A stretch of DNA of 64,000 nucleotides, from positions 27,720,501 to 27,784,500 of the forward strand of contig CM027385.1 in the NCBI GenBank assembly GCA_015680905.1, given 5' to 3'. The notes under the pieces are model-generated. The model made no database searches. It saw only the letters and a program-made list of their open reading frames with translations, and was not told the DNA's origin. Shown piece by piece: positions 6,601 through 38,176 of the stretch. This DNA is from Coptis chinensis. Taxonomy: Eukaryota; Streptophyta; Magnoliopsida; Ranunculales; Ranunculaceae. How positions within the stretch are numbered: the stretch's first letter is position 1; every line of letters starts with the position of its first letter. A program made the position numbers and the translations under genes.

Positions 6601-6719
6601 AAAACGTGAATTATGTTAAACGTGGACTTAGGATCCGGTACTTACAGCCACACACTCCATAAGGAGGGCCGGTTACATTAATGGTGCACTTACCAATATA
6701 TGGAAATGAAAGGAAGTAC

Positions 6720-7507: not shown

Positions 7508-7656
7508 CGGGGTGGTTGGAATGTCGATAAATGCTTCTAGAGGGTCCTCATCCTAAGTAATGAAGACATGCTTAGGCAGCAGGTCTTCAAACTCAGTAGA
7601 TGGAGCAACAGAAGGGTCTACGATAGGTGTAGACTCAAAGATGGTGTTGACTTCCT

Positions 7657-8145: not shown

Positions 8146-9120
8146 AGTGGCCGTGTGGGAATCTCCTAAGGTGCATTGTACAGTAGGACGACCAGGGTCC
8201 TTGTACTTAACGATTCTATTATGTTCTGATAAAGTTGGAAACTATTCAGTTAGAAAGGCGTCTTTAGGAATATTTGTCTTACGCCTAGTCGTGCACAACT
8301 CTTTAAGAAACTTAGCGTGGTGAGGTAATTTTTTAATTGCTTCAAGAAAGGGTAGGTTTATCATTAGATTTTTGAAAACTTCCCTAATCTCGTCATAGTT
8401 TGTATCCTTGTTTAACATAGCTAATCTCTAGGGAAATGGTGGTTTCTCTCTATATTTAGCGTATGGATCAACTGGATGTCTAACCTTGGCTTTGTGTTTC
8501 TTAGGTTATGGTTTAACTGGTACCTCTACAGGGGTAGGCTCTTCAGTTTCTATTTCGGTATCTAGTTCAATCTCCGTTGTAGGGACTCTTTGTGGGATAA
8601 CTATAGGCATAGTTACGTTGTTATCAACCACTCTCCCAGAATGGAGAGTGGTGATGGCATTTAGCTCACCTACGTTTGCATTTTCTGTACTAGTATTACC
8701 GTTCAACTCAAAGGCTGTGTTTGTTGTTTTAGGATTAGGTATTGCTTGACCTGGAAACACACCTTTTGGTTGTACTTTTTCTTGTGCTAACTGCTGTAAG
8801 GAAAGTTGGATGGCTTGTAAAATCTGTTGCTGAGATTGCATAAAGGCATTGAAACGATCCGGTTGTGGAGTAGTAGTTGTTACAGGTTGTGTGACAGGAA
8901 CTATGTCACGTTGATTATTCATAGGTGGGTTGTGGTAGTTATTATTATTAACCGGAACGATACCTTTATTAGCATTATAATTATTATTGTTATAATTATT
9001 ATAATTACCCTGACCTTGTCCTTGACCTTGTCCTTGTCGTGGTGGAGCTTGGTTATAATTGTATGCTTGCCTAATATTTTGATTATTAAACCCTAGAGGT
9101 GTTACTTGTTGATTATTTCT
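8146..9120 (-). pseudogene. gag-protease linker of element A (low complexity)
   Basis: A 138-residue Gln/Thr/Pro-rich frame (8922-8506) is flanked by Asn- and Gln/Gly-rich codons (about 8940-9110). Stops and frameshifts separate the pieces. The section joins the nucleocapsid to the protease and has no catalytic motif. Apparent plus-strand ORFs here are antisense shadows of the repetitive codons. Confidence 0.6.
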
Positions 9121-10076
9121 CTAACTGAATTTGGGATGTCTCCAAGGGGCGTTAGGAATAGGATAACTATTAATTGAGCAAACGTTATCTTGTTTTGATG
9201 TTTGTTGTTCATAAGCTAGAGGACAATAGGAGTTAAGATGCTCAGGACTCAAACAGAAATTACATGGATTTGAGTTGACATTCATGATGGGGATAGACTT
9301 TTGTTGAATAGAAATAGCTTCTACCTTTTTAGTGAGAGATTCGATTAAAGTTTTTAGCTCAGGATCGGGTTTCATCTCAAACATACCAGTGGCCTTAACT
9401 GTTGTAGAAGAACTAGCAAAACGGAAGATATCGTCACTACCCACCAGTTATTATTACGCTTTGTTTGATATTCTAAAAATTTATAAGCCTCTGAGGCTCC
9501 TTTACTTAGGAATCTACTCCCATTCATTATGTCAAGCACCTTTTTGTGGTGGTGTAACAATCCCTTGAAAAAGGCACAAACTAACGTGTCTTTCACAAGA
9601 TTATGGTGTGGACACTCTATAAGAAGATCGGTGAAACGATTCCAAGCCTTTGAAAATGATTCATGAGGATTCTGTCGAAAGAAATGAATCTTGGAAAGCA
9701 TTTCATCGGTCTTCAGTGGTGGGTAAAAATGTTCCATAAATAGTTGAACAAGTTTGGCCCACGAGTCCACAGAATTAGGCGTTTGGGCAGTTAACCAAGA
9801 CACCGTCTTATCGGCTAAAGTGAAGGGGAATACCCTCAGTTTAATTTGTTCAGCACCAACTGTAGGATGGTGGAATGTAGTAAAGACTTGGTCAATCCTA
9901 CGCATGTGCTGAGAAGATTTTTCATGGTCTAACCCATGAAAAACGGGTAACAAATTAAATATATTTGGGGGGATTCGGAAATCCCCCACTGGGTTTGATA
10001 GAACGATGCAAGATTTTGGGCTATCGTTCAAGGCTTTGTAAAAGTCAGAGAGAGGTGACTCTCTTTCTTCAGCCAT
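9121..10076 (-). pseudogene. gag (capsid and nucleocapsid) of element A
   Basis: The frame starts at 10076 (MAEERESPLSDF). The Retrotrans_gag-type capsid domain follows, with FRIPPNIFNLLPVFHGL, VSWLTAQ, LFMEHFYPP and FRQNPHESFSKAWNRFTDLL. A frameshift near 9400-9440 moves into a second frame (9444-9121) that ends in a zinc knuckle, CNFCLSPEHLNSYC (C-x2-C-x4-H-x4-C), for RNA binding. The product would form the virus-like particle and package the RNA. Lies about 680 bases downstream of the primer site. Confidence 0.88.
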
Positions 10077-10751
10077 TATTTCAGGTGTTGTGTGTGGTAT
10101 ATTAGCTAGAGGTGTAGTGAGTGGTATACTAGAAAGGCGTATTTGTTAATGTTGCTGCTTGATTACGTTAGGTGTTTTTCTTCTGCCTGACCTTAATCTC
10201 ATGCAAGGCTAAGACCAATCTTAACTAAACACGACAACACTCAAACAATCCTGATATGCTAATATAAACCTCTAACAGGAGATGCGAGGTGTGGAAGAAA
10301 GAAGTACCTGAATGCCTTCTTGCTTCGCTTATGAATATCGTCTTATTTACGCAAGCTCAGTGTATATAACAAGTTAGAAACACTGAATAACTTGAAGAAA
10401 TGGAAGTTTGAACTAACCTACGGAAATCGGGCGGTTCAGAGTAAGGCGAGGGTCGCGCTTTGGTTTAGCCTTCGGAGGGCGCGGGTCGCGCTCCGTATCA
10501 AACTGATGTCCAGTGATTTAGGCGCGGGTGGCGTTCCACTGAGGCGCAGGCATGCTCCGTACTTCACTGATGTCCAGTGATTTAGGCGCGGGTGGCGCTC
10601 CATTGAGGAGCAGGCGCGCTCCATGTAATCCTGTGAGGAAAATTTCAGTTCAGAAATGGACAACCATAGTTAGAATCAAACAAGGGTGGGTGGGTTTAAT
10701 GGGACTTGGGAAAGACTAATTATACTAACGAAAACAATTCTAAAGGGAACT
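10077..10751 (-). other. Untranslated leader of element A with GC-rich tandem repeat
   Basis: No coding sequence. Between about 10500 and 10625 a unit of roughly 63 bases (ctgatgtccagtgatttagg ... gcgctcc) is present twice, and a looser third GC-rich block precedes it at 10430-10500. These GC-rich blocks stand out in an AT-rich element. Confidence 0.65.
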
Positions 10752-14483: not shown

Positions 14484-14486
14484 CAT
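14484..14486. repeat. Target site duplication CAT, left copy
   Basis: CAT directly precedes CACTACACC. The partner is CAT at 27443-27445, directly after the other terminus. Confidence 0.85.
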
Positions 14487-14840
14487 CACTACACCATAAC
14501 ATCCTATATGTAACGGATATACATCCGTTACAAAAAATATTAGTAACAGTTATCTTGCGTTGACACAAAAGTGTGACTAATATTAGTAAAAGATATTTGT
14601 AACACTTATTATCCGTTACAAAATTTACCAACGGTTATAAAGTGTTAATGAAATTAATTTCAGTAACGGATACGTAACCGTTAGAATTTATTAATAACAG
14701 TTACCAAATTTGTTTATTAACGAATATAAGCGTCACTTTGATTTTCTGTTGCTAACGGTTACGTATCAGTTACTAACGAATTATGGGCTTTTCTTAATGG
14801 GGTCTGATTTTAGGGTGACTTGTAGTGAAATAACGTAAGT
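14487..14840. repeat. Left terminal and subterminal region of the CACTA element
   Basis: Short AACGGTT/TAACGGATA motifs occur in both orientations, for example at about 14512-14540, 14628-14690 and 14750-14780. Such arrays are where the TnpA-type protein of En/Spm elements binds. The LINE interrupts this region. Confidence 0.7.
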
Positions 14841-14993
14841 TGCCCGAGTGATCCAGTGCCTCTTTTCTTACTCAATATAGGAAAAAATATTAGGTAGCGA
14901 CTTCTTATCCGTTCCCCTCTTCAAGTTTCTTGCCCTTTCTGGTAAAATCCTCCATTGTTGATAGTGTGAGTTCAGAAGGGAGAGAAAGCAAGG

Positions 14994-16506
14994 ATGAATC
15001 TTTACGAGATGGAAAACCCTTCAGGAGGTAGAAACACAACAGAGAAGGGAGTTACCTCAAGCCTCTCCTATGTGGATATAGCAAAGAAAGCAGTTCACCA
15101 AGCGAGTGGAACTCAAGGAGCTCCCTGAGCCAGATATAATGGGGGAGTATCCAGCAATTACAGTTCCAGAACAAGCGTATGAACGAGGATTAAACTATTG
15201 CAAACACTGCTTGATTGGGCGTATTGATTTGTTCAAAGTGCCCATTGACAAAGTTCGCGAAATAGCAAAGGAGAAATGGACCCTCTCGGGGGAGTGGAGG
15301 ATCACACCGATAGGAAAAGGTTACCTTTTTATTCGCTTCTCCAATGCCGAAGATCTCAACAGAGTTTGGTCTCATGGGTCCTGGAATTTCGGGAAAGCTT
15401 TGCTTAGATTAAGCCCTTGGAGCCCAAACTTCTGCCCAGACAACCAACGACTTTCTCATGCTCTTGTCTGGATACGATTACCTGGGTTGGGACAAGAATA
15501 TTGGGAGCAAGAATCCCTAATGTCAATAGCAAGAGGTGTGGGATATCCGATGCACATAGATGAGAAAACTTTGAGTAGAGAATATGGCTACTACGCCAAT
15601 ATCCTGGTTGATGTGGACATGTCCAAACCGATCCCAGATCAAATCTATGTTAGAACTAAGAAAGTTCAATTCTGGCAAACGGTGGAAGTGGGGAAATTGC
15701 CCAAAATGTGTAATCACTGTAAGGCCGTCGGGCATTTGGTCACAGAATGCAGGAAACTTAAAGGGGTTATCACTATGCAAAACAAGAACAAAGAGGTGGT
15801 GGTGGACACTACTCCCGTACCTCAGATGGAAGAAGGGGTTAACAAGAGAAAAAAGAAAAGAAATAGAAACAACAAGGAGAAAGCAAAGAAGGTATGGCAG
15901 GAAAAACGGGGACTAGACACGAAATGGAGGAAAGAAACAGATTTGGAGTGCTTGCGCGAAGAGGATGCCACCAATGAGCATGAACCCGACAAGGACATGG
16001 ATAAGGTAGTGGAAGCACGTTTGTGGAGAACCATAGACAAGAGAATGATACATCCGGTGATAGCAATAGAGAGGAAACGACACCCTTGATGAGGAAGGGG
16101 TTTTGTAGATTTGAAGCGGGATGGGGAGATTCAAGCGTAAGGTTTGACAAGAGTGGAAGGGTCGAGGGTGGTCTCGAGGATCAACACGACATGAGTAATG
16201 GCGGGCTCGGAGGATAACAATGCACAACACCAAATGGTTGTGCACGAAATATTACAGGAGTCAGACATGTGTGGTGAACCAGAAATGGTTCTACAAATGT
16301 TGAATCATAGGGACAAGAAAGAGGAAGCTCTTGGCATAGGTTGGATCGGTGAGTCACCTAGGAATGCTAGCTGGGCAGATATGACAGATGATGAAATAGA
16401 GGATAGGCCAAAAGAAGCACCTCCTTACAAGCCTCAGTGGAAACTACAGATTGCCACACCACCTACCACCAAAGCCAAAGCTGGTGTTGGGACTTCAAAG
16501 AAGTGA
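14994..16506 (+). pseudogene. LINE ORF1 protein (DUF4283, CCHC zinc knuckle)
   Basis: The likely start is ATG at 14994 (MNLYEMENPSGG). A frameshift between about 15079 and 15126 leads into the long frame ending at 16089. DUF4283 covers about 15190-15700 (FKVPIDKVREIAKEKWTL, GYLFIRFSNAEDLNRVW, GLGQEYWEQESLMSIARGVG). The zinc knuckle CNHCKAVGHLVTEC lies at about 15709-15750, and a Lys/Arg-rich tail follows. A further shifted piece (16198-16506) is the C-terminal tail. The protein would bind LINE RNA. Confidence 0.82.
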
Positions 16507-17412
16507 TTCGTCACTCAACAGAAAGAAAGTTACGAATTTTTTCTCAATGAGGTGCCTGTATTGGAACATCAAAGGAATTGGTAACTATAAGTCGCAGCAG
16601 AGGTTAGCTAAGCTAGTACAGAAGGAGAACCCAGACTTCATAGGCATAGCTGAACCAAAGATAAAACCTACAGACATTCCCCTTAGTTACCTACAATCAA
16701 TGGGAATGAGTACGACTTTTCTTTTCAATCAGAATAACAATAAAGTTCCTAACCTATGGTGCATATGGAAAAAGGAACTGCCATCCCCACTCGATTCACA
16801 TCACAAGCCGACAAATACTTGGTGGAACTACTGTGGCAACATAATTACAATAGTGCATGCTCATTCATTGTACACTTACGCATTCGAGCTCTATGGGAGG
16901 ATCTAGCTATTTTGAATGCACTAAGCATGCCTTGGCTTGTAGCATGACTTTCAATGCTTACCTAAGCATAACAGAGAAGAAAGGGGCTTGAGACCTAATT
17001 AACCGCTGCCATGGAAGACTTTAGAAATGTGTCCACACTAATCTTCTTATGGAAGCACCTCAAACAGGTTGAAGTTTACTTGGTGGAATATGCACATTTC
17101 GGAAGGATGAAAATATTAGGCAAGTTGGATAGAGCTTTCTTCAATGAGAGAATAGGCTAATACACATATAGGCTGGAATTACAAAGTGGGAGTAAGGCGT
17201 GCTTTCGGACCACTCACCACTCACCGGTGGTATCAAAATGTCCCAAGGCCAAAAATGTCCCCTTTTTTTTTTCAACATGTGGGCATCACACCCGTGATTT
17301 CTTGAAGGTAGTGGAGGAAAGTTGGAATGTACAAATGGAAGGAAACTCAATCTTTGTTCTCAGGCAGAAACTTAAGATACTCAAAGGTAAACTCAAGTAG
17401 TGGAACAAAACG
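16451..17412 (+). pseudogene. LINE ORF2, endonuclease part
   Basis: The endonuclease N-terminus reads MRCLYWNIKGIGNYKSQQRL and PDFIGIAEPKIKP (about 16545-16670), typical of the AP endonuclease of plant L1 elements, which nicks target DNA. The frame breaks at 16906 and the remainder up to 17412 is heavily decayed with stops in all frames. Confidence 0.7.
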
Positions 17413-19452
17413 GTGTTTGGCAATATAAAGTACAAGCTAGAGGAAGAAACCCGGAAGCTTGAGCAATTACAAAGTCGTTTTGAACAAGATGGGGACAATG
17501 AGAGTATTACTCTAGAACTGGTGGAGCAAGAGTCGATGGTGGATGAACTGCTGCAGCAGGAACAAAGCTTCTGGAAACAAAAATCGAAAAACAATTGGGA
17601 TAACGACATGGATAGAAGCACTAAGTTCTTTCATGCACTTGTCAATTTGAAAAAGAGCAAAAACATGATCACTGAGCTGAAGAACAATGATGGAATCATT
17701 ATGCGAAATCAGAACGACATAAGGGATTACATGGTGAATCACTACAAAGAAAAATTCACCAAAGTGCTGCACGAGCCAGATGATGACTTGATAGACTTGA
17801 TGCCAGTAGTAATTGAGGAAGAGGATAATAACACACTTTGCAAGATGCCTGATAAAGAAGAAATAAGGAATGCAGTGTTTAGCTTGAACAAGGACAGCTC
17901 TCCTGGGCCGGATAGGTTCAATGGTTTTTTCTTCCAGCATTGTTGGGCTATAGTGGGGTATGATATGACTCAAGCAGTGCTGTATTTCTTCAAGTACTCT
18001 AGACTACCCAAGGGCTTCAACTCCAGTTTCTTGGTTTTGATACATAAAGAGAAGAATGCAAAACACCTTAGCAAATATAGGCCCATATGCTTATCGAATT
18101 TTGCATACAAAGTCATCACCAAGGTCATGGCTACAAGGTTGGGTCCTATAGCCGGAGAGAGGTGATTACACGGGGAGCAATATGGCTTCATAGCCCACCG
18201 AAACTCACAGCAAGCTATTGCCTTAGCTTCTGAACTAGTCAACGACCTACGGGTTACTCGACATGGGGGAAGCATCGGAATAAAGCTTGACATTGCACAA
18301 GCCTTTGACACTATTGATTGGCAGTTTCTATGGGCAGTTATGACTAGACTTGGATTTGGGAATAGATGGATACAGTGGATACAAGCAGCCATATCAAGCA
18401 ATTCAATGTCTATTATGCTTAACGGAGATTAATCGGCTTCTTCGGAAACAAAAGAGGGTTGAGGCGGGGAGACCCACTCTCCTCTTCTCTTTGCACTTGC
18501 GTAAGATTGCTTTTGAGAGGAATCCATCACCGATGCAGAGGGAAAAAGCCGCAACATATGATTCTAAACTCGAAATACTCTAGTCCATCCCATCTTATGT
18601 TTGCCGGCGACTTATTTCTTTTTCGCAATGCCAACTGGAGAGGCCTCAAGAATCTAGTCAAGCTCCTGAATAGGTACCAGGACTCCTTGGGACAAATGTT
18701 TAACAAAGACAAGTGCAAAATCTTCTTGAGCCCTATGACAAAAAGAAGAAAGGCAAAGATTAAAGAAGTGATGGGAATGAACGGGCGAAGTTACCGAGAG
18801 ATACCTTGGAGTACCTCTATTCACGGGAAAGCCTACCAAAGCAATGTTGGCTTCACTAGTGGATAAAATCAGGAAAAAGGCTGCTGGATGGGCAGGACAC
18901 ATGTTATCGTTTCAAGGAAGGGTGGTGTTGGCCAAACACGTTATAAATAGTATACCAGTGCACAATATGTCAGTTTATAAATGGCCACAATCTATCATTA
19001 AAGAAGGCGAGGCAATCATTTGCAATTTCATATGGACTGGTGATCCATCGACAAGGAAAGCTACTACAGTTGCATGGGATAAGACTTGCAGGCCGCATGA
19101 AGAAGGAGGGCAGGGTATAAAGAAGCTAAAGGACATTAACTTGGCCATGCTCATTAAACTAGCTTGGGCTCTCCTGACAAAAGACTCACATTGGGCACAG
19201 TTCATGAAAGCCAAGTACACCAACAGAGCTGGAAGTTGGTCGGAATCCAAAACTTCCACAGTATGGCTTGGCATCAAATGGGCTCTAAAAGAGATGGGAT
19301 CGCATATTGGATGGGTGATAGGAAATGGGAAATCAATAAACATTTGGAGAGAGAACTGGTCCTTGTCAAAGCCAATCTGCGATTATTTCAAGGAAGAAAG
19401 AAAAGACATTGTCAAGCTCAAAGCCCACACTTCAAAGCCGCATACAAGGTAA
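17413..19452 (+). pseudogene. LINE ORF2, reverse transcriptase part
   Basis: Open from 17413 to 18165 with MDRSTKFFHALVNLKKSKN, SLNKDSSPGPDRFNGFFFQH and HLSKYRPICLSNFAYKVITK, then broken pieces and a last open frame 18844-19452 (DKIRKKAAGWAGHMLSFQGR, SVYKWPQSIIKEGE, TTVAWDKTC). The catalytic YADD/FADD box reads FAGD at 18600-18611, so the first catalytic aspartate is replaced by glycine. With at least two frameshifts in the palm, this RT is dead. Confidence 0.85.
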
Positions 19453-19599
19453 CCAATGGATTTTCAAAGAACTCCATGTTGCGATCCTAGCACGAGTGGG
19501 TATCGATCCCGAAACCTTGCAAACAGCCAAAGCCATTCATCGAAGATAGAAGAATTTGGATCTCATCTCCCACCGGTCAATTCACAAATGGCGTGGAGC

Positions 19600-20640
19600 C
19601 TATGAGGATATCGAGGTAAAGCACAAAAACGGGATGGTCTAAATTTCTTTGGCACTCATTTGTCTCACCAAAAATAAAAGGAACCGGATGGAAAATATTT
19701 CATGGAGCAATGCACACTGATGATAGAGTTAGAGAGAAAATGAAGAACAAGCTCGCGATCAAGATGTGGAGTCCGTAAGTGCAATGAAGCGGAAGCACAC
19801 TTGTTTTTCAATGCCCCATGGTGGTCGTGAGAGCTTGGACCATGATAACAAATCTGTTTAGCTTAGCGTGGGTACCTCAGGCAACAAATGATATTCTTTA
19901 GCAATGCAAGCATTTTAGTTCTCTGGTGCTGGATATGTGGAGAGCTGCATGCATTACTTGCTGGTGAGTATTTGGAAGAACAGAAATAGAGTAATATTTG
20001 AGGAGAAAGTCAGAACTTCAAGTACATAAGCCAACAGATAATCGAAGAGAGATGGCCGGAGCACATGGGAAATCAAAAGGGCACATGGCAAACAAAGATA
20101 CAAGACTTGAGGTTACTTCACGACCTTCATCTAAAAGCATAAGGTACGAAGCGGTACCGAGGATTTTTGAATGCTTTTGGTCATTGCCAACAAAGAAACA
20201 CCCTCAAGATAAACACCGATGGTCGCTTCACCGGGGAATCCAGTCGATCGGGGGTGGGGCAATGTATTTCGAGATGATAAAGGCAAAGTGTTGGGTGTAG
20301 GCTGGCGGAGGACCGGGTATAACGACAAATAATTTGGCGAGGAAGCTAAAGAATCATGGAAGGGATCAAGAAAGCACTTTCGAGATGGGTCGGACATCTT
20401 TATGGGTGGAAACAGACTCTAAGGTTGTAAGCTAAGACTTTTCATAAGAATACGGTTCATCGGGTCCATGAGGGATGCGTGGGAACAACTAAAGCGAAGC
20501 TAGATGGATCAACATCACGCATACATGGAGAGAAACTAATTTTGCTGCAGACAGCATGTCTAAGTATGGTGCGACACTAGATGCAGGAGCCAAAATATGG
20601 TGGAATGGACGTCCAGACTTTCTAAGGGTGGAAGATCCAT
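19600..20640 (+). pseudogene. LINE ORF2 tail: zf-RVT and RNase H remnants
   Basis: A zf-RVT-like stretch is readable at about 19645-19740 (FWHSFVSPKIKGTGWKIFHG). Remnants of RNase H (INTDGRFTG) occur at about 20210-20240. Frames change many times. The assignment rests on order and short motifs, compared with the better preserved copies at 28.8-29.9 kb and 34-35 kb. Confidence 0.6.
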
Positions 20641-20757
20641 ATACTACCTACTTTCGCTTTGTAACTTAATGTTATCTTCTTATTTTCCTCTTGTAACCAA
20701 AGTGTAGAGCTGTAACCTTATTTTATTCATTAATCAATCACCTTTAAGCAAAAAAAA

Positions 20758-20840
20758 TTTCATTGTATAAAAAAAAATTATGTTGCTAACGGTTGATTAC
20801 GTATCCGTTACTAACAAATTTTCATTGTATAAAAAAAATG
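20758..20840. repeat. Direct repeat around CACTA subterminal sequence at LINE 3' end
   Basis: TTTCATTGTATAAAAAAAA occurs at about 20758 and again at about 20820. Between the copies lies a gctaacggtt...gttactaac segment like the one at 14750-14785. Confidence 0.6.
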
Positions 20841-21500
20841 ATTTCTCTGACCCTTTTATATGTGGGCCACCTGTACTGGTGCACGTACCCATACCTGCAC
20901 CTTTTTTTACTCCACAATGTATCACTTATCACTTGGAACAATTGATAGTCAAACAACACTTCATTAAATAATTACAACTCAAGTCTAGAACTTCAAAGTA
21001 TCATATAAACAACTTAAGAAAATAAAACTTAAGTATAAATAAATCCGCACCACCTAAGTACAAGCTAAATAACTATTTTAAGTACAATTTTTACAACACC
21101 CTGCCTATCCAAGAATGTTGTAATCATTGAAACTTTCTCGACCAGAGGTAGAGGCTTCCTCCATATCTTCTTCATCCATATCACTTCTGAAATACGACAG
21201 AAGTATAATTGAATTTGGCATCCATGGCAAGACTTTAGAGTAAAACGTATACGAATAAATTATCAGAATCTACCCTTCAAAACCCACTTATAAAAAATCA
21301 TAGAGCTTTGCTCTAAAAATCCAACAGTCTTTAAATAGAACCAAAACAATAAATAGATCATAAAAATTTGTGGCACCAAGGATTTAAATGGAACAACTTT
21401 CCAATCCTTATGAACTAAAACAAGAAAAGATCGTGAAGTTTTGCCAAAGCAAGGATTGAAAAACGAAACTCTTCAATCCTTATCGTTTACTGTTACATTA
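20841..21500. other. CACTA internal sequence without recognised gene
   Basis: AT-rich, no coherent ORF. It lies downstream (minus strand) of the captured CCCH gene and may include its 3' flank. Confidence 0.4.
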
Positions 21501-23509
21501 TTACCTGACATGGGTGTTGTTGTCGCCATGCTTGGAGTTCTCCTCCGTATCATTGTCCCCGTGATCTAACTCGGCTTGAGGCTTTGAGACGTTATCAGCA
21601 ATAGTGGATAAGGATAAGGAAGTTGCACAGCTTACTGCACAATTATCTGCAAGTAAACAAGATGGCATCAGAAAAAAAAAATGTAACATGTGCTCCTACC
21701 TACAGGAGTTTGTAGAACCTTAATTGTTGTTCATGCTTACCTAATTGCGTCATAGGACTACTCTGACCAGGTGAAGATGTCAGAATCGTGAAATTCTGAT
21801 TGACATAGGTGTGGGAGTGAATTGGGGAGGGAACAGAGCCAGTTCCAGTAGAAAGATTGCGACGATGGTGCTTATTACCATAAAAAAGGTGCAGGCCCAT
21901 CAGTTTCCTACTATGAAGCTCCATTGCTTGCTGCAATTCAGCCTGCTCCAACTTTCTTCTCATAAGCAGTTCATTGGTATTGTAAAACATCCTCGGACTG
22001 CTTTCCATTTGCATACTGAGCTAAAGGTCAAAGGGGTCCCGGTGATCATGGCCAGTAATACCAGATGGTGAGAAATCTCCCAACTCCATCATTGGTTGTT
22101 GTTATTTCCTGTTTATTGGGAAGAGGTGGTAAATGTATTTGACGCATAAAACAAAGATCGAAATTATGAAATTGGAATGTGGAGTGCATGTAGCTATCCG
22201 GGACTTTCCCTTTCTCTTTGTAGGGCTTAACAAGCACACGAGCATCGCAGAAAAAGTGTGGGTTGCCTTTAGCGAGTATGAGCTTCACAGTCTCATAATA
22301 AATACTTGGAAAAGAAACAAGAAGTACACTTCAATCCCCAAGTCTTTAAATTGCAGAAACAATAGCAAAAAATAGGAAAAAAATCTTCACTCAGGTAGAG
22401 ATGAGGAGTAAGGAGAAACCTGAAGTAATTGGAGACGTCTTCTTCTCTGAAAGTGCTGTCAGCTGGGAAAGTCAAGTATATCTGCCTGGATGCAGAGTTA
22501 GCCATTCCTCCGGGGATGCTTAAAAAGTCACTTCTCTCAATTCGAGACTGACCATAATGGTGCAAATCGTCCCCATCCAACATTAACCCAGCTGCTGCCC
22601 TGAAAAAACCAATACCTAATCAAAACAAATCAATGAAACAAAATGAACCAATCCTCAAAATAGAGCTCTATGCTAGTGAAAACAAGAATAGTAATAATAA
22701 ACAGCACACTGCACCTCAATTCTGCTGCTGTTGCAACAAGAAATTTGAGCATTTGCTGCTAGTGTAAGGGAAAGAACCAGAAGCAAGTATCTGGGAGACA
22801 TTGGTCAATCTGCTGTTGATGTTGACAATGTTTCAGACTTCTGGATCTAAGAAGCTCGCGACACTGTTCCATGACATCAAATTCACCACCAAATGTGGTT
22901 GAATCAGTAGAATCATGGAGGAAACGACAGCTTGTCCCATTCTTACAGTAGCCTCTAGCATAGTAAAGGCATGGCTTCCACCCGAAAGGATCCGAGCCGA
23001 TATCTGTGACGGAGTGGCTGCGTCGGTGTTGCTCATTGTTGACACCCCAATTAGGAGGAGGGGAATTGAAGAACATAGCATCAGTGTCGGTGGCAAAGTC
23101 GGATGAGGGGAAAAACAAGTCGGGGTCTTTTGGGCCTTCATCGAGGAAAGGCAAGTGGTCTTGGAGATGAAATTCATCAATGTGGTTGTTTTTGACATTG
23201 TGGTGGAAGCCATTGGGGCTCAAAACATTAAAATCGGTGGAAGCAGAAGAGTGAGAGTGGAGTGGAGTAATCTGGAAGAATTCAGCCTGGAAAGTGGGAA
23301 GAATGGAGAGGCCGTGGGAGAGAGACCTAGTTCATTACAGGCTTTGAGGATGAGAGAGGGACAAGGGATTCAGGTCCAAAAGCAAGGTGGATCATTTCTT
23401 TGTCGCCATGATCTTGGATCAAGAGAAACCCCATGATCTTAGCCGCATTCTCTGGGTCTATGCTTTGAATCCTTGAAAAAACTATTCTTGTTGCTTAATA
23501 AGCATCCAT
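21501..23509 (-). pseudogene. Captured CCCH zinc-finger/RRM gene (C3H53-like), with introns
   Basis: Exons are readable on the minus strand. The start at 23507-23509 is followed by DAY, a TAA stop as fifth codon, then [20 protein letters not shown] and [15 protein letters not shown], the N-terminus of the plant CCCH-53/55 family. A frameshift lies near 23365. The long exon 23223-22759 holds the CCCH finger PCLYYARGYCKNGTSCRFLH (C-x7-C-x5-C-x3-H). An RRM begins at about 22480 ([20 protein letters not shown]) and continues after an intron with [20 protein letters not shown] (22285-22225). Next come MFYNTNELLMRRKLEQAELQ (about 21990-21930) and a last exon ending near 21501. Introns are retained, so the copy came from genomic DNA and not from mRNA. 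The nonsense codon and frameshift mean no normal protein. Such proteins bind RNA. Confidence 0.85.
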
Positions 23510-23605
23510 GATTTGGATTTTCTTTCGGTGTTGGGCAAAAGATGATGGTTTTGGACTTGAAAAACAAAAAAGTACACTCCAACCTCTAAAATAAATAAAT
23601 GACGT

Positions 23606-23627
23606 ACTCACTCACTCACTCACTCAG
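23606..23627. repeat. Microsatellite (CTCA)n
   Basis: About five tandem CTCA units lie upstream of the captured CCCH gene start. Confidence 0.8.
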
Positions 23628-23812
23628 AGTAATCCTTTATCTTCAATTCTCCTACGACTTTTCCTTTTCTTGCCTCACTGCTGCTGTTCTGCAAAAAGAT
23701 ATAAATGAACCAAAAAGAAGAAAGTTAGATTTTTTTTGAGAGGCTCAAAGTAAGTCTCTTAATTTTTCTCTGACTACTACTCTAAATACTAAATCCCTCT
23801 CATGTTTATGTT

Positions 23813-23899
23813 TAAAAAAAAAAAAAAAAAAAAAAAAGGTTAGATTTGGGTATCTAAAAAAAGCTAGGAAAAATATGATATCCTACTACTACAGTACTA

Positions 23900-23936
<37 letters not shown>

Positions 23937-24006
23937 TTAGATTTGGGTATCTAAAAAAAGCTAGGAAAAATATGGTATCCTACTACTACTACAGTACTAC
24001 TGCTAC

Positions 24007-24051
<45 letters not shown>

Positions 24052-24465
24052 TTAGATTTGGGTATCTAAAAAAAGCTAGGAAAAATATGATATCCTACTA
24101 CTACTACTACAGTACTACTGCTACAAACAAAAAAAAGGTTAGATTTGGGTATCTAAAAAAAGCTAGGAAAAATATGATATCTTACTACTACTACAGTACT
24201 ACTGCTACAAACAAAAAAAAGGTTAGATTTGGGTATCTAAAAAAAGCTAGGAAAAATATGGTATCCTACTACTGCTACAAAAAAAAAAAAGGTTAGATTT
24301 GGGTATCTAAAAAAAGCTAGGAAAAATATGATATCCTACTACTACTACAGTACTACTGCTACAAAAAAAAAATAAAAAAAAAAAAAATAAAAATAAAAAT
24401 CTGGGTATCTAAAAAAAGCTAGGAAAAATATGATATCCTACTACTACTACAGTACTACTGCTACT
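23813..24465. repeat. Poly(A)-containing minisatellite, seven copies
   Basis: A unit of about 66-115 bp is repeated in tandem. Each has an A run of varying length, then ggttagatttgggtatct, an A7 block, gctaggaaaaatatg, tatcc and a (TAC)n block ending in gtactactgctac. The core tctaaaaaaagctagg occurs seven times (near 23854, 23951, 24062, 24152, 24236, 24302, 24407). Copies differ mainly in A-run length (about 9 to 43) and TAC number, so slippage adds to unit duplication. It separates the two captured genes. Confidence 0.92.
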
Positions 24466-24512
24466 TAGTAGTTACCTACCATGTAAGTCTGGACTCTCTG
24501 AATCCAACATCT

Positions 24513-25321
24513 TTAAGAGTTTATAACTAAACACTCCACTATAGACTTAAAATTTAAAAATTCGAGAATCTGTTGTTCAAGTGCCCGGATATCAGTATTA
24601 GGATGCAGTCCAAGAACTACCATGCTCTCAAACAGCCTCGAAGGCTCTTTTACAGATCTGTGACCATGCAGAACATAGATAATCGAGTCGTCAAATACAC
24701 CGAGACTACATAAGAAACACAAAAGTAAATGAATTTTACGTTTTGCAACAAATGAACTCTCTGGAAGGCACCTTTGCATATTCATTTTTCTGACTAAAGT
24801 GCTACTCTTTTTAAGAGATTGATAAATAGTATTTCCATCAAATATGTCGGGAGTTTCCATAAAGAAGATTCACACTTTGATATTTAAGTTCTAATTTCAT
24901 TAACAGAAACGATTATCAATGATTGATTCTGCTGTACTACAGAGTGTAATAAGTGAAAATTTAAGCAGAATTCACGTCAACTACTTGATCAGAAGAAGAA
25001 CAAAGAAAGAGATTAGCATACCATGGCATGCAATCAAACCTTGCCTTGGCGACGCCGGGCTAGTCAAAACTTCAGATTATATATTTGCTTTCTTGACTTC
25101 GAAAGCAGAAGGTGAGGAGCCTTTTAATACCCTTGTGAACTGGCATTGAAATTTCTGAAATTGGCTATTGTCATCTTAATTGAAAATACAGCAGAAGGAC
25201 GTGGGGAACGAGGCGCTACTGCCACAACAGCTTTCGCAACATCCTCAATAGTCCGCATAAAATATGCAACACTCCATCCAAGACTACCAGAATCTTCAAT
25301 CTTAGTCATCTCTCTTAACAA
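24513..25321 (-). pseudogene. Captured DENN (AEX-3) domain gene fragment, N-terminal part
   Basis: On the minus strand a first exon (about 25305-25060) reads MTKIEDSGSLGWSVAYFMRT and IEDVAKAVVAVAPRSPRPSA; after a small frameshift near 25170 it continues with QFTRVLKGSSPSAFEVKKAN. A second piece (about 24670-24560) reads HGHRSVKEPSRLFESMVVLG and LHPNTDIRALEQQ. This order of blocks matches the N-terminus of plant DENN domain proteins as I remember them; DENN proteins act as exchange factors for Rab GTPases. The copy stops before most of the DENN domain. Family assignment is from memory of conserved blocks. Confidence 0.68.
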
Positions 25322-25329
25322 TTACACCA

Positions 25330-27100
25330 GATAAAAATTCTGATCCTTCTGAAAAAAGTATGTCATAGCCATAAGTTAGTTACTCCCTCACAACTGAAGT
25401 ATGTAATGCACAAAAAAACTTGTGTGCCATAAATCATAAGAAATGAAAAAAAAAACACAAATCATACATCAAAGAGATGAAAAATTCACACACATGAAGT
25501 TTAATGAACATGGGCATGGCATGATGCAAGTTATATGAAAAAAGAATACAAATTTAACAATACTCAACAGATAATTTTACAGAAAAAGTGACAACGGTTA
25601 TTTAATTTACTCTCTTTTTTCACATTATAAACATTTTGAGTAACAACGGTTCCAACACGCAAACACTTGTCTTTCTCCTGCATAAGATAAAATGGTACAA
25701 CTGCTCCCCAAACACTTGTCTTTCTCCTGCATAACAAAATTAAAAGCACTAAACAAATATGGGAAGGATTTGACCAACCATCACGAACTTCAATTAGTTT
25801 CTAATAAGAATGCATGAAAAGAAATTGAATCAGGCTACAATAATTGGAATTACAATCCCACTCCAGCAAAACTTTTGATACCAAGATTAAGATTTAATGA
25901 CAATTATAACATGGTACAAGACTACAAAAAAGCACTTGTGTAACCTGAAACAAATGAATGACAACACAAGATGGATAATAACTGATATTAAATCTCTTAA
26001 GGAAATTCTATATTAGTTGAATATGCAAAAGAATTACCTGAATGACAAACATGAAAAGCTCAAATAAGCTAATTAAGTAGCACTACATAAGTATACATAA
26101 CTGAACAAGCTGTGAGATTTCTACAAAAACATCTTGCTGTGAAGACTCGTATGTAAAGACTTTATCAAAAGTAAAATGGTGTTTTTGCCCTGCAGACAAT
26201 AAAATATGACATGTTCATACAAAGTTTCAATCACGATAAGACCCCATTCAATAAACATACAGTGTAGTTGAACTTCCCATCTAACAAAAAATGAGTGTAA
26301 TTTTGAATTACCTAACTCGTCGATGAGGTCTGTGAACACAAAGTGTAACATACAGAGTCCATTTTTATTGAAGGTTGGGAGGTTTTAGAAGTTCAGCAGA
26401 GTGTGAAATAGAGAGTCCATTTTTATTCACCCAAGATTTTCATTTTAGTCATATTTAACTTGACAAACGAAAATACTACACTAGTTAAACATTTAGCAGA
26501 TTGAACACTTAGTAAGAAGAGACAACATTAACAACAGCAGGCACCTCAAAATCTCAAAATATTGAACCCCATATCATAAATTCGACAAAGAACGATTAAA
26601 AGTAAACCATTGGTTCAAACCAAACTATTAAAAAATCATAAAATAACAGTAAAAAAAAGGTAATCAATACTTTATGAGCAGAGAAATCATAAAGCTCTCA
26701 GCTTGATTGATATCTGAATTAGATCCATTAGAAATAGAGATAAACTTGTTAATTAGAAAACTCAGAAATCATTCTTTAGCAAATTTACCATCAAAATCCA
26801 CTCTTTTACATATTAAAAACAATCTTGTACTGATCCATTGAAAATCAGCATAATAAACAACAATCGACTAATAAAATTAAATATGTTCAGCAGATAATGA
26901 AAACCCTAAACATCAACTACTCACCTCGGTTAAAGAGAATCTTTTCTTCAGTAGATCGAAAAAATGAAAATCTCGAAACCCTAGACATACAAAACCAAAA
27001 CCAAAATCAAAACCTTAAATAATTTGTAGGAGGAAGAAGAGAAGGCGAAAAAGAAGGAAGACGAGGATAGAGCAACTCACCGAGTGAAGAAGAAGTCCAC
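25330..27100 (-). other. Intron-like and 5'-UTR-like sequence upstream of the DENN fragment
   Basis: No ORF is convincing. On the minus strand two good splice donors are visible, GGTGAGT at about 27077 and GAGGTGAGT at about 26928. They follow short blocks that look like untranslated first exons. They may be the 5' end of the captured DENN gene, giving a captured block of about 2.5 kb. This is an inference. Confidence 0.4.
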
Positions 27101-27279
27101 GACAGCAGTGGCAGCACCACTCGTCGAAGCTTTAGTTTATCTGTTTCCCCTTTTTTTTTCTATTGTTTTTTTTAGATGAGCGCCAGAAGTGAAATACTCC
27201 CGCTTCAGTTTATCTATTTTTTCCCATGTAATATTCTTTTTCTTGTTTTTTTTTTCTTAGTTTCTAACGTATGAGTAAA

Positions 27280-27442
27280 CTTTGCTAAATATCTAAAGAA
27301 ATGTTACGTAATAATTCAACTATTTAAGCAATGGTTGATTGCATTGCCAACGGATAGTATATGTGACTAATTTTCTAACGGCTGTATAAGTGTTACAAAT
27401 GAAAAATCCCAATTGTTGCAAATTCACCAAAATGGTGTAGTG
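27280..27442. repeat. Right subterminal and terminal region of the CACTA element
   Basis: It contains gccaacggatag, ctaacggctg and the terminus caccaaaatggtgtagtg. The last 18 bases can also form a short hairpin (caccaaaatggtg). Confidence 0.75.
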
Positions 27443-27445
27443 CAT
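27443..27445. repeat. Target site duplication CAT, right copy
   Basis: It matches CAT at 14484-14486 next to the other CACTA terminus. Confidence 0.85.
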
Positions 27446-28062
27446 GTCCTATATTGGGTTATTAAGAGGCTACTAGACCCACCGTTTCCATGTACACATT
27501 AGATATTGCAACCATATCAATAATTTGCAATAGCAATCACTTTTAAAGCATCAGATAGTTTTGTTCAAGGGGTTCCTATTTGGTGCTTTTAATCGTAAGA
27601 ATATCAAATATACATTTTACAGGGAACTGTGAGTGAGTTATCGGTGGCATTACTTAAAGGACATGTTTATCGATTGGGTTGATGTTTGCAGGTCCTCTAC
27701 GTGAGTAATGGTCATCACCTTAAGAATGTGAGCATCAGTAGGTAATGCCCATTTTAACTCCTTTTCTCTTTAGAATATATGGCATGCAAGATTTTTGTTT
27801 ATGGAGGCTAGCTTACTGTATTGGTTTAGCACTTTAGATCAACACGTTGAAATTCTAATGAGTAAAGCATATGAACTTCTAGGTTCCTTGAAAAATGGTG
27901 ATTGAGTTTTCTGTCATTATTCTATTATTCTAATGTGCTCTATTTCATTCTTGGTAGTTGTTGTATTGGGTTTATTAGTGCTTGATTGTTTGATTATTTG
28001 TGAATTTATTGTTTGTTTTTGGGTGTTTAGGGATTCATGTCATTTGAGGAAACTGATAGGAT
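27446..28062. other. Flanking DNA between CACTA element and LINE
   Basis: It continues the pre-insertion sequence that ends at 14486. No gene is readable. The last 15 bases (28048-28062) are the left LINE target duplication. Confidence 0.5.
28048..28062. repeat. LINE target site duplication, left copy
   Basis: GGAAACTGATAGGAT is repeated exactly at 30105-30119, directly after the LINE A-rich tail. Confidence 0.92.
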
Positions 28063-28726
28063 GTTTCTAGGTGGTATGACTCAAGAAAGGCAAGATCATC
28101 TCCATCAAATGTTGAACATTCAAATAGGTGCTTTACCTGAAAAGTACTTGGGTGTGCCTTTGATAGTAGGTAGAATCACTAGGGCAGCAGTGACTCCTTT
28201 ACTAGACAAAATCAGGAAAAGGATTACTGCGTGGAAAGACAAGCTTCTCTCCTTTCAAGGGAGATGCGTGCTTATACAGTCGGTTTTTTCTAGCATCCCA
28301 ATATACAATATGGGGGTTTACAAGTGGCCATCTAGCGTCATTAAAGAAGTAGAGTCAATACGCAGAAACTTTCTATGGTCGGGTAATCCTGCGATCAAGA
28401 AATGTGTAACAGTCTCTTGGGATAAAGTTTGCAAACCGAAGGAGGAAGGGGGGTTGGGCATGAGAAGGTTATGGGAGCTCAATCTGGCATTGTTGATGAA
28501 GTTGGCTTGGCATGTCAAATACAAGGAAGATGATTTTGCTGTGTTTATGCTAAGTGAATACTTTACTAGAGACAATGAACCCATCGAATACTACACAAAG
28601 TCATCTCTATGGCCAGGTATCGGATGGGCTCTACACGAAGTTACTTCAAGATCTCAACGGCTTATAGGTGATGGGAACAAAGTGGACCTATGGAGAGATG
28701 TCTGGGTTGGTGAGCAATCGATCTAA
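28063..28726 (+). pseudogene. LINE RT C-terminal part
   Basis: It holds LPEKYLGVPLIVGRITRAAV, DKIRKRITAWKDKLLSFQGR, RRNFLWSGNPAIKKCVTVSW and KPKEEGGLGMRRLWELNLAL, the region after the catalytic palm of plant L1 RT. The frame ends in a TAA at 28724. The catalytic palm was never copied into this insertion. Confidence 0.88.
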
Positions 28727-28822
28727 CAGGCTTTATAGCTTTCTACAACCCAGCTGAAGAATTGCAGGGCAAAACTCAGTTCGATAATTCATAATGGTGT
28801 ATGGAACATACCTCCTCCACTT

Positions 28823-29180
28823 TTGGTGTTGTTGCAACATATGGGAGTGGACACAGAGAACCTTCCGGTCATAAGGCAAGATGAAAGGGATTGTAGTGTC
28901 TGGAAGGAGGACCTTAAGGGAAATTTTTCAGTCTCTGCAGCATTTCAAGTCATTCGAAGAAAAAACACGAAAGTGGATTGGCAGCAACAAGTGTGGAATG
29001 AGTATGTGCATCCTCGAACTACAGGTATTGCTTGGAAACTTTGCCGAAAGTGTGCGGCAACAGACGCTGCCATGCAACGCAGAGGCCTTCAGATGGCGTC
29101 CAAATGTTACTTGGGTTGTCAGGTAGAAGAAAATCTCTAGCACATCATATGGGACTGCAGTTTCGCAAAGGAAATATGGG
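28823..29180 (+). pseudogene. LINE zf-RVT region
   Basis: The open frame holds VWNEYVHPRTTGIAWKLCRK and CYLGCQVEENL. A TAG follows where related elements read through, and HIIWDCSFAKEIW continues in the same frame up to about 29180. This is the zinc-binding RT-associated region between RT and RNase H. Confidence 0.8.
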
Positions 29181-29185
29181 AGTGG

Positions 29186-29925
29186 GTGGCATGGCAGTTT
29201 GGATTCCGATGCTTTACAAATTTAAAGGAGGAAATATCGAGATGTAATCACAGAAGTACAATCATTGTACATTTGTGGACTACAGCCGTAATGGAAGGAA
29301 TGGTTCTCCTTTGGAAGCACAGGAACCTAGTAGTCTTTGACAACAAACGACCACACTTAATGCAGTGCAAGATAAAGCTCCAAACCCTTATACACAATGC
29401 CTACTTCCTCTCTAAAGGAAGTATGCATGGTGTGTCAGATATGAGGATTCTAGAAAAATGGGGTTTACAAGCAAGACATCCGAGAGCCCAAAAAATTAGA
29501 AACTGTAAGTGGTACCCACCTGATCTCGGCATCATTAAGATCAACACAGATGGTGCATCCAAAGGAAATCCCGGTGAAGCAAGTTATGGTGCAATCTTTA
29601 GGAATTTGAATTGTAAAATCATACAAGTTCTGTGCAAAAATATTGGTTTTAACACTTACTACATAGCTGAAATCCGGGGTATTCTTGAGGGTATTGAGGA
29701 GGTAGTAAGCAAGGGGTGGAATAAAGTATGGGCCGGGTGAAATCAGACTCTACAGCAGCAGTACCATGGCCTTTGGAGAGGACCAACTTCCATGGTTCTT
29801 AAAACAAAGGTGGAAGAGAGTTCAAAGAAGTTTGTCTCATTGCCAGATTACAAGCATTTGGCGGGAAGCAAACTTTGCAGCTGATTTAGCCGCAAATCAT
29901 GCACTTTCACTCAATTGCACAGATT
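29186..29925 (+). pseudogene. LINE RNase H domain
   Basis: It contains KINTDGASKGNPGEASYGAI (catalytic Asp in TDG), AEIRGILEGIEE (catalytic Glu), a shift near 29740, then SDSTAA (catalytic Asp) and WREANFAADLAANHAL. This is the plant L1 C-terminal RNase H (RVT_3 type) that removes RNA from the hybrid. Catalytic residues are present, but the domain is split by a frameshift. Confidence 0.85.
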
Positions 29926-30104
29926 AAGTTTTGTATGAGGGAAGACCCGACTGGCTTACTAGATGGGAATCTCCCTCGGTGACCTACTATAGGTTTGTTT
30001 AATGGTGGTTAGGGATTGTACAAACCCAAACCAACTACTACAATGTAACTTGTACCTCCTTTTACCATACTAATACAATTTTGCTAACTTAGGGAAAAAA
30101 AAAG

Positions 30105-30119
30105 GGAAACTGATAGGAT
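30105..30119. repeat. LINE target site duplication, right copy
   Basis: An exact match of the 15 bases at 28048-28062. Confidence 0.92.
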
Positions 30120-30690
30120 TGGATGAACATATGCTGTTAATTAAAATTGAACATTACATGTGCATGTCCTGTTAAAGAAAACTTTGGAATTAGACTTTTT
30201 GTGCAGGGGAATCCTTTATTGCATTTGTTATGAAAGGTATATCTAGATCTCAGGGAAAGTGAGTATATATCAGTTGGGAAAGAAGGGTACATACTAAACT
30301 AACAAAAAGATTTTGTACTTCTTGCTAGCATTGCGCAATCCGTAATAATTTATTTATACATACGTTTTTGGTGATTATTGTGAATATTGTTGAGCACCTT
30401 ATACAAAAATAACTATTAAACCATCTTCTTAAAGTTCTAGCCTTCTTAATATTGAGTTAAGAAAGAAAGCTTGCCCCTAACGAGGCTAATACTTTTATAG
30501 TAGTTGTAATTATGCTATAACTCTAACTTAATTACTTTGCTTTACCAATGTAATTTAATTTATTGTGCAGTGTTATTCTTTTTTTTCTGTGTAGAGGTGT
30601 GTTGGTGCTAGCCTCTAGGCATTAGCCCAGTTCCGGCACTCGAAGTTCATTCATCCACATAGCATTCCAACTTGCAATCTAAAAATCATG
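30120..30690. other. Flanking DNA between LINE and solo LTR
   Basis: AT-rich with no gene recognised. It is continuous with the sequence left of the LINE insertion. Confidence 0.5.
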
Positions 30691-30695
30691 TTGCG
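30691..30695. repeat. Target site duplication TTGCG, left of solo LTR
   Basis: Identical to 32124-32128 on the other side. Confidence 0.92.
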
Positions 30696-32123
30696 TGATA
30701 TAAGTAAAAAGATAGTTTTACCTGCGCATAAGCTACGAAACTCAAACGCGAGTAAAACTAGAACTATTTTCTTGCTTAATGTTATCAAAGTTTTCTACTC
30801 TCGATGCTATTGCAATAGAGTTGGAATAGAAAATTCGTTCCACTCTTAGTTCTTTAGAAATCTAAGTTAACTACGATTATCAATCTATCAAATCAATGAG
30901 AGTAATGATGGAAATTTTACTACTATGACAATTAAAATACTAAGGTTCGAATCTAGATAAAGAATTAGGGGAATTTGATTCCACCTTGAATTCAACTTAA
31001 TAAACTAGCATAGATTGTTGTAATCCAATTCTTCTGTTCTTACGATAAGAATTGGTCGTTCTAATCCCTAATCATTCATAGCAATCTCTACCAAATAATG
31101 ACTAGCATGTGAGGAAGTTCAACCCATTCTCATGGCGAATCAACTACTTTCTAGAATGGAATAGAATCTTACAACTATTTCTACACTACACAATCAAGTT
31201 TTCATCAAGGCTTCCTCAAACCCCTCTAATGGAGGTTTAGCCTTGATTCATAAAACTATCATTTATATAGGAATTAAAACAAGACATGATATAAAGACTA
31301 TAAATTTGCTATATTGATCTACTCAAGAATTCAAAACTGAATTAACAATTAAGAAATGATTAATAACTAAAGAATTGAATTTAGATCTAAGTGATTTAAT
31401 AAACTAAAACTAAATTTATGAATAACTAACTACTTTTATTGATCTAATGAATAATAACAATACTGATTCAAAACTGAATTTAAAACAAAGTAATTAAAAC
31501 TAATTAATGGAGTCTATGCTAATTTATTTTCTAATCTAGGTCTAGCTAATGAGTCTCCTCTTTCCTCCCTTCAAGAAGAGAAAGAGATCCCCAATTTCGT
31601 GCATGGGCCTGGAGCCATGTTTTGGGCCGGAAAATCGAGCCCAAAACCCAATTTCTTCAGTCCACAGAGCCCTTTTCAGCTAGATTTGACTTCAATAGAC
31701 TTTTCGTCCACTTCTGCTCTTCTGATTAGGTTAAGATTTGGACCATTGGAACGCTCTTTCCAAGATGGTCGTTTTGACATAAGGTAGGCCCAATTCCGAG
31801 GTCTGAGTCCAAAGATACAGTCATCGGAAGTTCTGCTAATATTTGTGCGCTGTTTCTGCCCGTGTGGACTTGACTTTTCAGCTTTGACCGGGCTTTAAAA
31901 AGGCTTTTTCTCCTTGAATCTTGGCCTTTAATCATAGAACTTCTTAGCAACCAACCCTTGCTAATTTATCTTGCAAAAGTGACACATTTCTGTACATAAT
32001 CGACTCCAATGCCTGAAATATATAAAAGCACGTAATCAGCATTAACTCTTATTTATTACTCGCATAATTGGTCTAAAAGTATTATTGTTAAGGGGTTAAA
32101 ACTACAGTTTTGGGCTCTTATCA
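30696..32123 (-). mobile_element. Solo LTR of the Athila family
   Basis: It begins TGATATAAG and ends GGGCTCTTATCA like the LTRs of elements A and C. Neither a primer site nor a polypurine tract follows. The 5-bp direct repeat TTGCG flanks it exactly (30691-30695 and 32124-32128). A complete element therefore inserted here and was reduced to one LTR by recombination between its two LTRs. Confidence 0.94.
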
Positions 32124-32128
32124 TTGCG
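32124..32128. repeat. Target site duplication TTGCG, right of solo LTR
   Basis: Identical to 30691-30695. Confidence 0.92.
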
Positions 32129-32244
32129 TCTACGCCCTATCCGGCCTACTTCTCCAACTGATTCATGTGACTTCTAATTCTGGATGACGAGGTTGGTTTT
32201 GCGTATATAACCAGCATGAAGCACGTAAATTGTCGGATCATCAA

Positions 32245-32246
<2 letters not shown>

Positions 32247-32285
<39 letters not shown>
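32247..32285. repeat. Poly-T run (39 bp)
   Basis: An uninterrupted T run. It could be the tail of a minus-strand retroposon, but I see no matching body or target duplication. Confidence 0.9.
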
Positions 32286-32963
32286 CTACTTTTCTTTCAT
32301 TTTGTTTCGCATCTTGGTTTTGTGAAACTTATGATAAACTTTGGCTCTTTAACCACATGATAGATTTTGTAAGATTATTTCAGTCGTTAGCCTGTAAACA
32401 AGTTGATTATATCTAAAAGTTTCTATACGCAATTTTTTTTTGTTATCATGATGGTGTCCTTTCAATTCATAAAGTTTTAGCATGTAAATTTCAAAGGCTG
32501 TATGTATGCTTACATAATTTTAGGAAATAATTTTATAAACTGAACCTCTGTTCATAAGCTCATTAATGAGCTTTCTTTGTTAGCCACGTGGTACACACGT
32601 ATAAATGGAATTTTATATTGGACAATTACAGTAGGATGCCTGAATATCCAATGTGTCAAAATGGAAATTCAATCAACATCACCAACTAAATGAAGCGAGA
32701 TGATATACTCTGCGTATGGAGGCCAAATTTGTAACTTTTCTTTCAATTATCTATAGCCCTATCTTATGTACTGTGATAAAGTCCTAAACATGTATTAGGC
32801 AAACTACAAGCTGGAGTATGTGAGTGCATGGTTTCGAGTTTCGTTTAGTTCGCTGCAGTATGTGAGTTCATGGTTTTGAGTTTTGTTTAGTTTCGCACTT
32901 TAACAAGCTTTTATGGGACAAAATTTTAGAAGAACCGTGCCTTCTGTAGCACTGATCAATTTG

Positions 32964-32991
32964 ACGCCCAAAGGGCGTGCACATTTGCTAG
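32964..32991 (+). mobile_element. Helitron-like 3' terminus
   Basis: A perfect 6-bp stem (acgccc/gggcgt, loop aaa, 32964-32978) is followed nine bases later by CTAG (32988-32991) and then T. This is the Helitron 3' signature: a hairpin about 10 bases before CTRR, inserted before T. The matching 5' TC end was not identified, so the extent of the element is unknown. Confidence 0.6.
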
Positions 32992-34623: not shown

Positions 34624-34722
34624 GACTCGCTAATGTATCGAGATGGATGTGGACGCTTACCTTGAAACCTTGTTTCATTTTCATGTCCAAATAATCCACA
34701 AGACCCCAACAAAGTAGCAGCA

Positions 34723-35131: not shown

Positions 35132-35151
35132 TTCGGATCAAAGTATCCTCC

Positions 35152-36071: not shown

Positions 36072-36095
36072 ACTTACCCAAAGACTAAAAGATCA

Positions 36096-38135: not shown

Positions 38136-38176
38136 CGAAGGTCAGCCACTCCCTCGACTGGTCCAAGCTAGTAGAC

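Follow-up and report, generated by a model that had tools for sequence, protein, structure and literature searches.

A fused pair of host gene pieces between differing CACTA ends in Coptis chinensis

Introduction

How does a transposable element come to hold parts of two unrelated genes, and which part of such a composite endures? The question is raised by a 64,000-nucleotide stretch of Coptis chinensis DNA, here called the window (contig CM027385.1, written C9:27720501-27784500), in which a CACTA element at positions 14487-27442 encloses parts of a CCCH zinc-finger/RRM gene and of a DENN-type gene. It is very probably a Pack-CACTA, in which one capture and fusion of the CCCH and DENN parts was multiplied by transposition, the ends were replaced in some lineages, and a long interspersed nuclear element (LINE) later entered the window copy. 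The genome searched has a total length of 936 Mb over 116 contigs, nine contigs being observed to measure 85-125 Mb, and its genes and elements are of plant type; C-numbers with positions in Mb, such as C9:83.95, denote loci of the same genome, and L-numbers denote fetched loci. The case offers a well-resolved gene transduplication by a CACTA element, with a source locus, an empty site, sister copies and an order of events.

One cargo in six copies, fused in five

The cargo and the two ends occupy the following positions.

14487..14782: left terminal region of the CACTA element, with the terminal inverted repeat (TIR) CACTACACCAT; 96% to the C4:68.38 copy
21192..24516, minus strand: captured CCCH zinc-finger/RRM gene with 3' and 5' flanks; coding part about 21501-23509, read off the sequence
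22298..22303, minus strand: place of a 69-bp deletion in the RRM exon; common to six copies
24517..24564: junction of the CCCH upstream flank with the DENN exon, joined mid-exon; same in five copies
24565..25587, minus strand: 5' piece of a DENN-type gene, with start codon, first coding exon, intron and part of the next exon
26271..27442, minus strand: right end of the CACTA element, the leader side of a tnp2-type transposase gene, with TIR; shared with transposase-bearing relatives

A protein search of the genome (19 matches from 32 candidates) defined six loci with the CCCH cargo: the window, C4:68.38, C9:33.28, C4:47.73, C4:73.6 and C2:34.5. By substitutions, these copies are 92-96% identical to the source locus at C9:83.95 Mb. 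Sixty-nine bp of the RRM exon, present at that locus, are missing in 6/6 copies, and five of them (the window, C4:68.38, C9:33.28, C4:47.73 and C4:73.6) agree in their CCCH/DENN junction; at C2:34.5 there is a CCCH part but no DENN piece. Because the deletion is found in all six copies and the junction in five, the cargo points to one capture and one fusion, multiplied later. The DENN tree, whose 17 rows are the five CCCH-bearing copies, a locus on C3 and eleven of twelve loci without CCCH, joins the five CCCH-bearing pieces in one group (support 92/90; 96% of 200 bootstrap trees).

An earlier note on this DNA had proposed that one CACTA element carries fragments of two unrelated genes in the same orientation, and had suggested looking for other copies. 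Both parts indeed lie on the minus strand and recur in sister copies, and the search gives six copies with the CCCH part, five of those with both parts.

Different ends around the same cargo

Between the window and C4:47.73 copies, the Kimura two-parameter distance (K2P, hereafter K) is 0.034 in the cargo (2276 sites), 0.253 in the left end (205 sites) and 0.303 in the right end (193 sites). The C4:47.73 and C2:34.5 copies agree in left end (0.046) and cargo (0.038) but disagree in the right end (0.362), and the window and C4:68.38 copies are in rough agreement throughout (left end 0.035, cargo 0.032, right end 0.078). Three end combinations are found around one cargo: that of the window and C4:68.4, that of C4:47.7 and that of C2:34.5. 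Since the ends diverge far more than the cargo and occur in three combinations, they appear to have been exchanged around one cargo. In the CCCH tree, with the source locus outside, the two left-end types stand on separate branches (81/86 and 100/99). The target duplications of the four copies with both ends seen are all different: CAT in the window, and CAC, GTT and AAT.

On balance, the fused cargo, and not the ends, would seem to be the lasting unit, using in turn at least three CACTA end combinations from divergent subfamilies, possibly with different transposases. Because ends and cargo have diverged to such unequal degrees, this one lineage can be used to test the neighbouring-element model of capture and end exchange.

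Boundaries, insertion site and later inserts

Within the window, the TIR occurs at 14487-14497 on the plus strand and at 27432-27442 on the minus strand as the sole two exact matches; with at most one mismatch there are five matches against 0.97 expected, a number reached in 0/100 shuffles. CAT stands directly outside both element ends as a 3-bp target site duplication. When the two window flanks, joined around a single CAT, were queried against the genome, 18 matches were obtained. Two of these cover the whole query (C9:37838122-37838462, 97%; C5:82806619-82806961, 96%), a third, C6:9989709, crosses the junction at 96% and ends at query base 253, C8:54062330 crosses it at 78%, and nine further matches span it at 69-73%; the remainder consists of short pieces and the two flanks in the window itself. 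The C9, C5 and C8 sites, fetched and aligned, each have one CAT, with the element absent. Because such single-CAT sites without the element exist, it was inserted into a copy of a repeat whose empty state is kept elsewhere, and 14487-27442 is evidently one CACTA insertion.

The other features of the insertion and its edges are as follows.

14484..14486: target site duplication CAT, left copy; CAT flank, single CAT at the empty sites
14783..20754, plus strand: LINE with DUF4283, reverse transcriptase, A-rich end and broken frames; LINE absent from two sister copies
20755..20927: left terminal region of the CACTA element, continued; common to the left-end loci L003, L006 and L007
20928..21191: stretch between the CACTA end and the CCCH gene; common to the C4:68.38 and C9:33.28 copies
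23814..24410: 5' flank, with an A-rich unit of about 70-115 bp repeated in an array; the source locus has a single unit
25588..26270: stretch right of the DENN-type piece; 25588-25856 common to the C4:47.73 copy
27443..27445: target site duplication CAT, right copy; CAT flank, empty-site alignment

Part of the stretch right of the DENN-type piece, 25681-26104, is 95% identical to C8:17986201-17986627. The LINE is recognised by DUF4283 (1.2e-28) and reverse transcriptase (1.5e-8) matches in its broken frames. In the C4:68.38 and C9:33.28 copies the corresponding region lacks the LINE, so the LINE, about 6 kb of the element, is a later arrival; no clear target duplication was found at its borders beyond a few bases. 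The C4:68.38 copy has its own 4-kb insert in the CCCH exon (L029 3620 to 7690), with inverted ends starting TATAACACCCCGTG.

Searched against the genome, the left end had 478 candidates and the right end 282, of which the best 40 were scored in each case. The scored matches include two correctly ordered pairs of ends, at C4:68379082-68390081 and at C1:21151655-21165227. They also include two left ends of the family in opposite orientation, at C7:11413527 and C7:11415327, with starts 1.8 kb apart. In a look for subterminal repeats, short self-matches were seen within and between the element ends.

The boundaries read in the earlier note, an 11-bp terminal repeat and a CAT duplication, are upheld by the shuffle test, the CAT flanks and the empty single-CAT sites, and its concern that the termini might occur independently is answered by paired termini in the window, at C4:68.38 Mb and at C1:21.15 Mb. 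The single element that it described stands as a CACTA insertion, but 14783-20754, the later LINE, had gone unmentioned.

Transposase-bearing relatives

Downstream of the shared right end in L036 and L035 are frames with Transpos_assoc (1.4e-18) and Transposase_21 (1.5e-11, 4.6e-10), and the right end is therefore the 5' side of a tnp2-type transposase gene; in L036 the stretch shared with the window stops 456 bp upstream of the transposase frame. The cargo in the window runs in the direction of this gene, behind its leader. That 26271-27442 might be 5' sequence of a host gene was considered and rejected, as 18 right-end loci besides the C4:68.38 copy (L011-L028) share it wholly or partly and it precedes transposase frames; in most of these loci the sharing starts at about 26594, three have it from 26271 on, and one has the last 270 bp alone.

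No transposase family was found in the ten scanned of 34 open reading frames listed. The element thus appears to be non-autonomous, without a transposase coding region, as is characteristic of Pack-CACTAs; host coding DNA between the ends and several cargo-bearing copies (six loci) evidently agree with the same class. A TIR starting CACTA, a 3-bp duplication and tnp2-type transposase in relatives with the same ends mark it, by these sequence features, as a member of the CACTA superfamily.

A relative with the same left end, L079 (C1:21151601-21152900), holds a sodium/hydrogen exchanger piece at 679-1206 near that end (PF00999, 3.8e-11), and presumably belongs to a 13.6-kb element with transposase frames at its right end. 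Because of this piece, the family seems to have taken host genes more than once.

Sources of the two gene parts

The CCCH cargo, 21192-24516, aligns with C9:83949680-83952385 at 94% and 88% in two long stretches, with weaker pieces around the repeat array. It spans the entire coding region with its introns, together with roughly 1 kb ahead of the start codon and some 300 bp after the stop codon, and zf-CCCH matches it at E 4e-6; judged by this alignment, it is nearly the whole CCCH/RRM gene with flanks. The nearest source, C9:83.95 Mb, has a frameshift that is not present in the window copy. The first exon of an intact tandem paralog, C9:83957986, is open and matches zf-CCCH (1.4e-6), and two joined exon pieces of this paralog match RRM_1 (3.9e-7). 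As an intact source gene, C9:83951367 was rejected because of the frameshift, the paralog at C9:83957986 being open in the same exon. In 12.5 kb around the CCCH source, on both strands, there is no DENN match, no CACTA end, no CACTACA motif and no other element match.

The DENN-type piece, 24565-25587, is 84.6% identical to the 5' part of a gene-like locus, C3:457516-461535, which runs on into residues with a weak uDENN match (E 0.013; 16.4 bits, cut-off 22.3; joined pieces). We take the piece to be of DENN type for its presumed likeness to plant DENN proteins, besides this sub-threshold Pfam match on the C3 copy. In the captured piece a uDENN/DENN domain was looked for, and no Pfam family was found in window 24516-24869; the cut lies before uDENN. 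When one exon frame of the C3 locus was used as query, 18 matches from 32 candidates were obtained, of which only the C3 locus was whole-length. The CACTA copies extend further into the 5' side of the gene than L040 and L044, two loci without CCCH that were aligned. L040, L041 and L044, with further loci, belong to a repeat that spans 3.9 kb or more, is 94-96% alike in three loci and holds nearly the same DENN-type piece without CCCH.

The parental CCCH gene that the earlier note had proposed to seek is thus located at C9:83.95 Mb, and the arrangement that it named as contrary, host CCCH and DENN loci contiguous without CACTA ends, is not found at the CCCH source in this genome. Its minus-strand CCCH/RRM piece with introns is retained (zf-CCCH E 4e-6; RRM matched in the paralog) but is almost a whole gene plus flanks, and its DENN-domain piece remains a second minus-strand gene piece but stops before uDENN, with no DENN domain within.

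Origin of the composite and alternative explanations

The alignments show that the element was inserted, that capture happened once, that the two gene parts were fused and that the ends differ, and to this we add by inference a transposase source and a neighbouring-element mechanism. An ancestral CACTA element would have lost its transposase body and gained a near-complete CCCH/RRM gene, whose source resembled C9:83.95 Mb, with the 5' exons of a DENN-type gene fused to it; the two parts follow the transposase leader and have the orientation of the transposase gene. Transposition, for which full-length relatives presumably supplied the transposase, then multiplied the composite into at least six cargo copies. 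In some lineages, ends from other CACTA subfamilies appear to have replaced the original ones, which would be expected if the outermost TIRs of adjacent elements act as a pair, and the window copy later received the LINE.

Several points weigh against this reading. Mobility is read from sequence traces, and right ends were compared in 4/6 copies, those of the window, C4:68.38, C4:47.73 and C2:34.5. Mutations affect the left TIR at both C4:68.38, where it reads CAATA, and C9:33.28, and the DENN tree places the C9:33.28 copy with the other end type (85/87), its left end resembling that of the window. Two element stretches, 20928-21191 and 25588-26270, are without assignment. The longest DENN-type copy (C3:0.46 Mb) has a frameshift, and an intact DENN gene was not found, which does not show its absence, since no search aimed at it was completed. 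Additionally, twelve loci without CCCH carry the DENN piece among the best 40 scored of 185 candidates, eleven of which were compared and are 83-90% alike; since such loci exist, the second piece may go back to a copy that was repeated beforehand rather than directly to a gene.

Repeated, independent capture of both gene parts by different CACTA subfamilies would account for two groups whose left ends differ by K 0.23-0.29 and whose right ends, where seen, differ by K 0.27-0.34, as well as for a 247 bp difference between the groups in the 3' limit of the CCCH cargo. It is nevertheless very unlikely, given that the same RRM-exon deletion is present in six copies and that the CCCH/DENN junction is common to copies of both left-end types. 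Still harder to credit is a functional chimeric gene with the transposon as its promoter. Both pieces do follow the direction of the transposase leader, the DENN piece keeps its start codon and inferred splice donor, and cargo of a soybean CACTA is spliced into chimeric transcripts (PMC1947982); yet the window CCCH copy has a stop at codon 5 and frameshifts besides the 69-bp RRM loss, the inferred exon-2 acceptor of the DENN piece has changed from AG to AT, and each of the other five CCCH copies has at least one stop codon inside the protein match. As each of the six copies is damaged, a protein function of the cargo appears unlikely. A chimeric RNA and small RNAs matching both host genes, which the earlier note suggested, are candidate products of the element.

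Another explanation, improbable though less remote, is that the cargo copies make putative small RNAs that silence the source at C9:83.95 Mb, whose frame is now broken while the tandem paralog is open. The 92-96% identity of the six copies to the source would suit this, as would a frameshifted source beside a more distant paralog open in its first exon, and passages of PMC13317346 call captured sequences of maize (Helitrons, Pack-MULEs, Sireviruses) reservoirs of small interfering RNAs; a frameshift in one of two tandem copies is, however, ordinary. A single capture and fusion, followed by multiplication and exchange of ends, thus remains the preferred explanation.

Relation to known gene-carrying CACTA elements

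Pack-CACTA and Pack-TYPE transposons are the subject of Gisby and Catoni (2022; PMC8903248) and, as cited, of Catoni et al. 2019. In soybean, Tgm-Express1 is described by Zabala and Vodkin (2007; PMC1947982) as a CACTA element with five unrelated host gene fragments and chimeric RNAs. In both it and the window element, CACTA ends enclose exons together with introns from more than one unrelated host gene; Tgm-Express1 sits in a pigment gene and its chimeric RNAs are shown, whereas the window element is known here from DNA alone, holds a nearly whole gene, and has a cargo that occurs with different ends. For maize, passages of Gisby and Catoni (2022; PMC8903248) and of PMC13317346 state that Pack-TYPE elements often hold coding DNA from more than one locus, Pack-CACTAs most of all, and propose hybrids of neighbouring elements; compared with the Pack-CACTA passages of PMC8903248, the window cargo exceeds 4 kb and its ends differ by K 0.25-0.30 around one cargo. 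Chenopodium CACTAs likewise carry host gene fragments, of other genes, namely Neprosin and AP2, the AP2 fragment being 80 bp, in the passages of Belyayev et al. (2022; PMC8978399).

Gene-carrying CACTA elements of the Pack-CACTA or Tgm-Express kind are therefore already known, and the same fused cargo between clearly different ends is the notable addition. Titles and abstract openings showed no paper that describes a single cargo between several divergent sets of CACTA ends, but this negative is weak.

Neighbourhood of the element

An Rfam scan of the window gave no family at the gathering score, a phage search gave no match, and searches of the PDB gave nothing useful. Elsewhere in the window, 57654-60857 on the minus strand has CACTA-like gene frames, with DUF4216 (2.8e-13) and a sub-threshold Transposase_21 match (0.023). 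Around the element, long frames at 28031-39965 and 2939-10145 are LINE-like and Ty3-like by eye.

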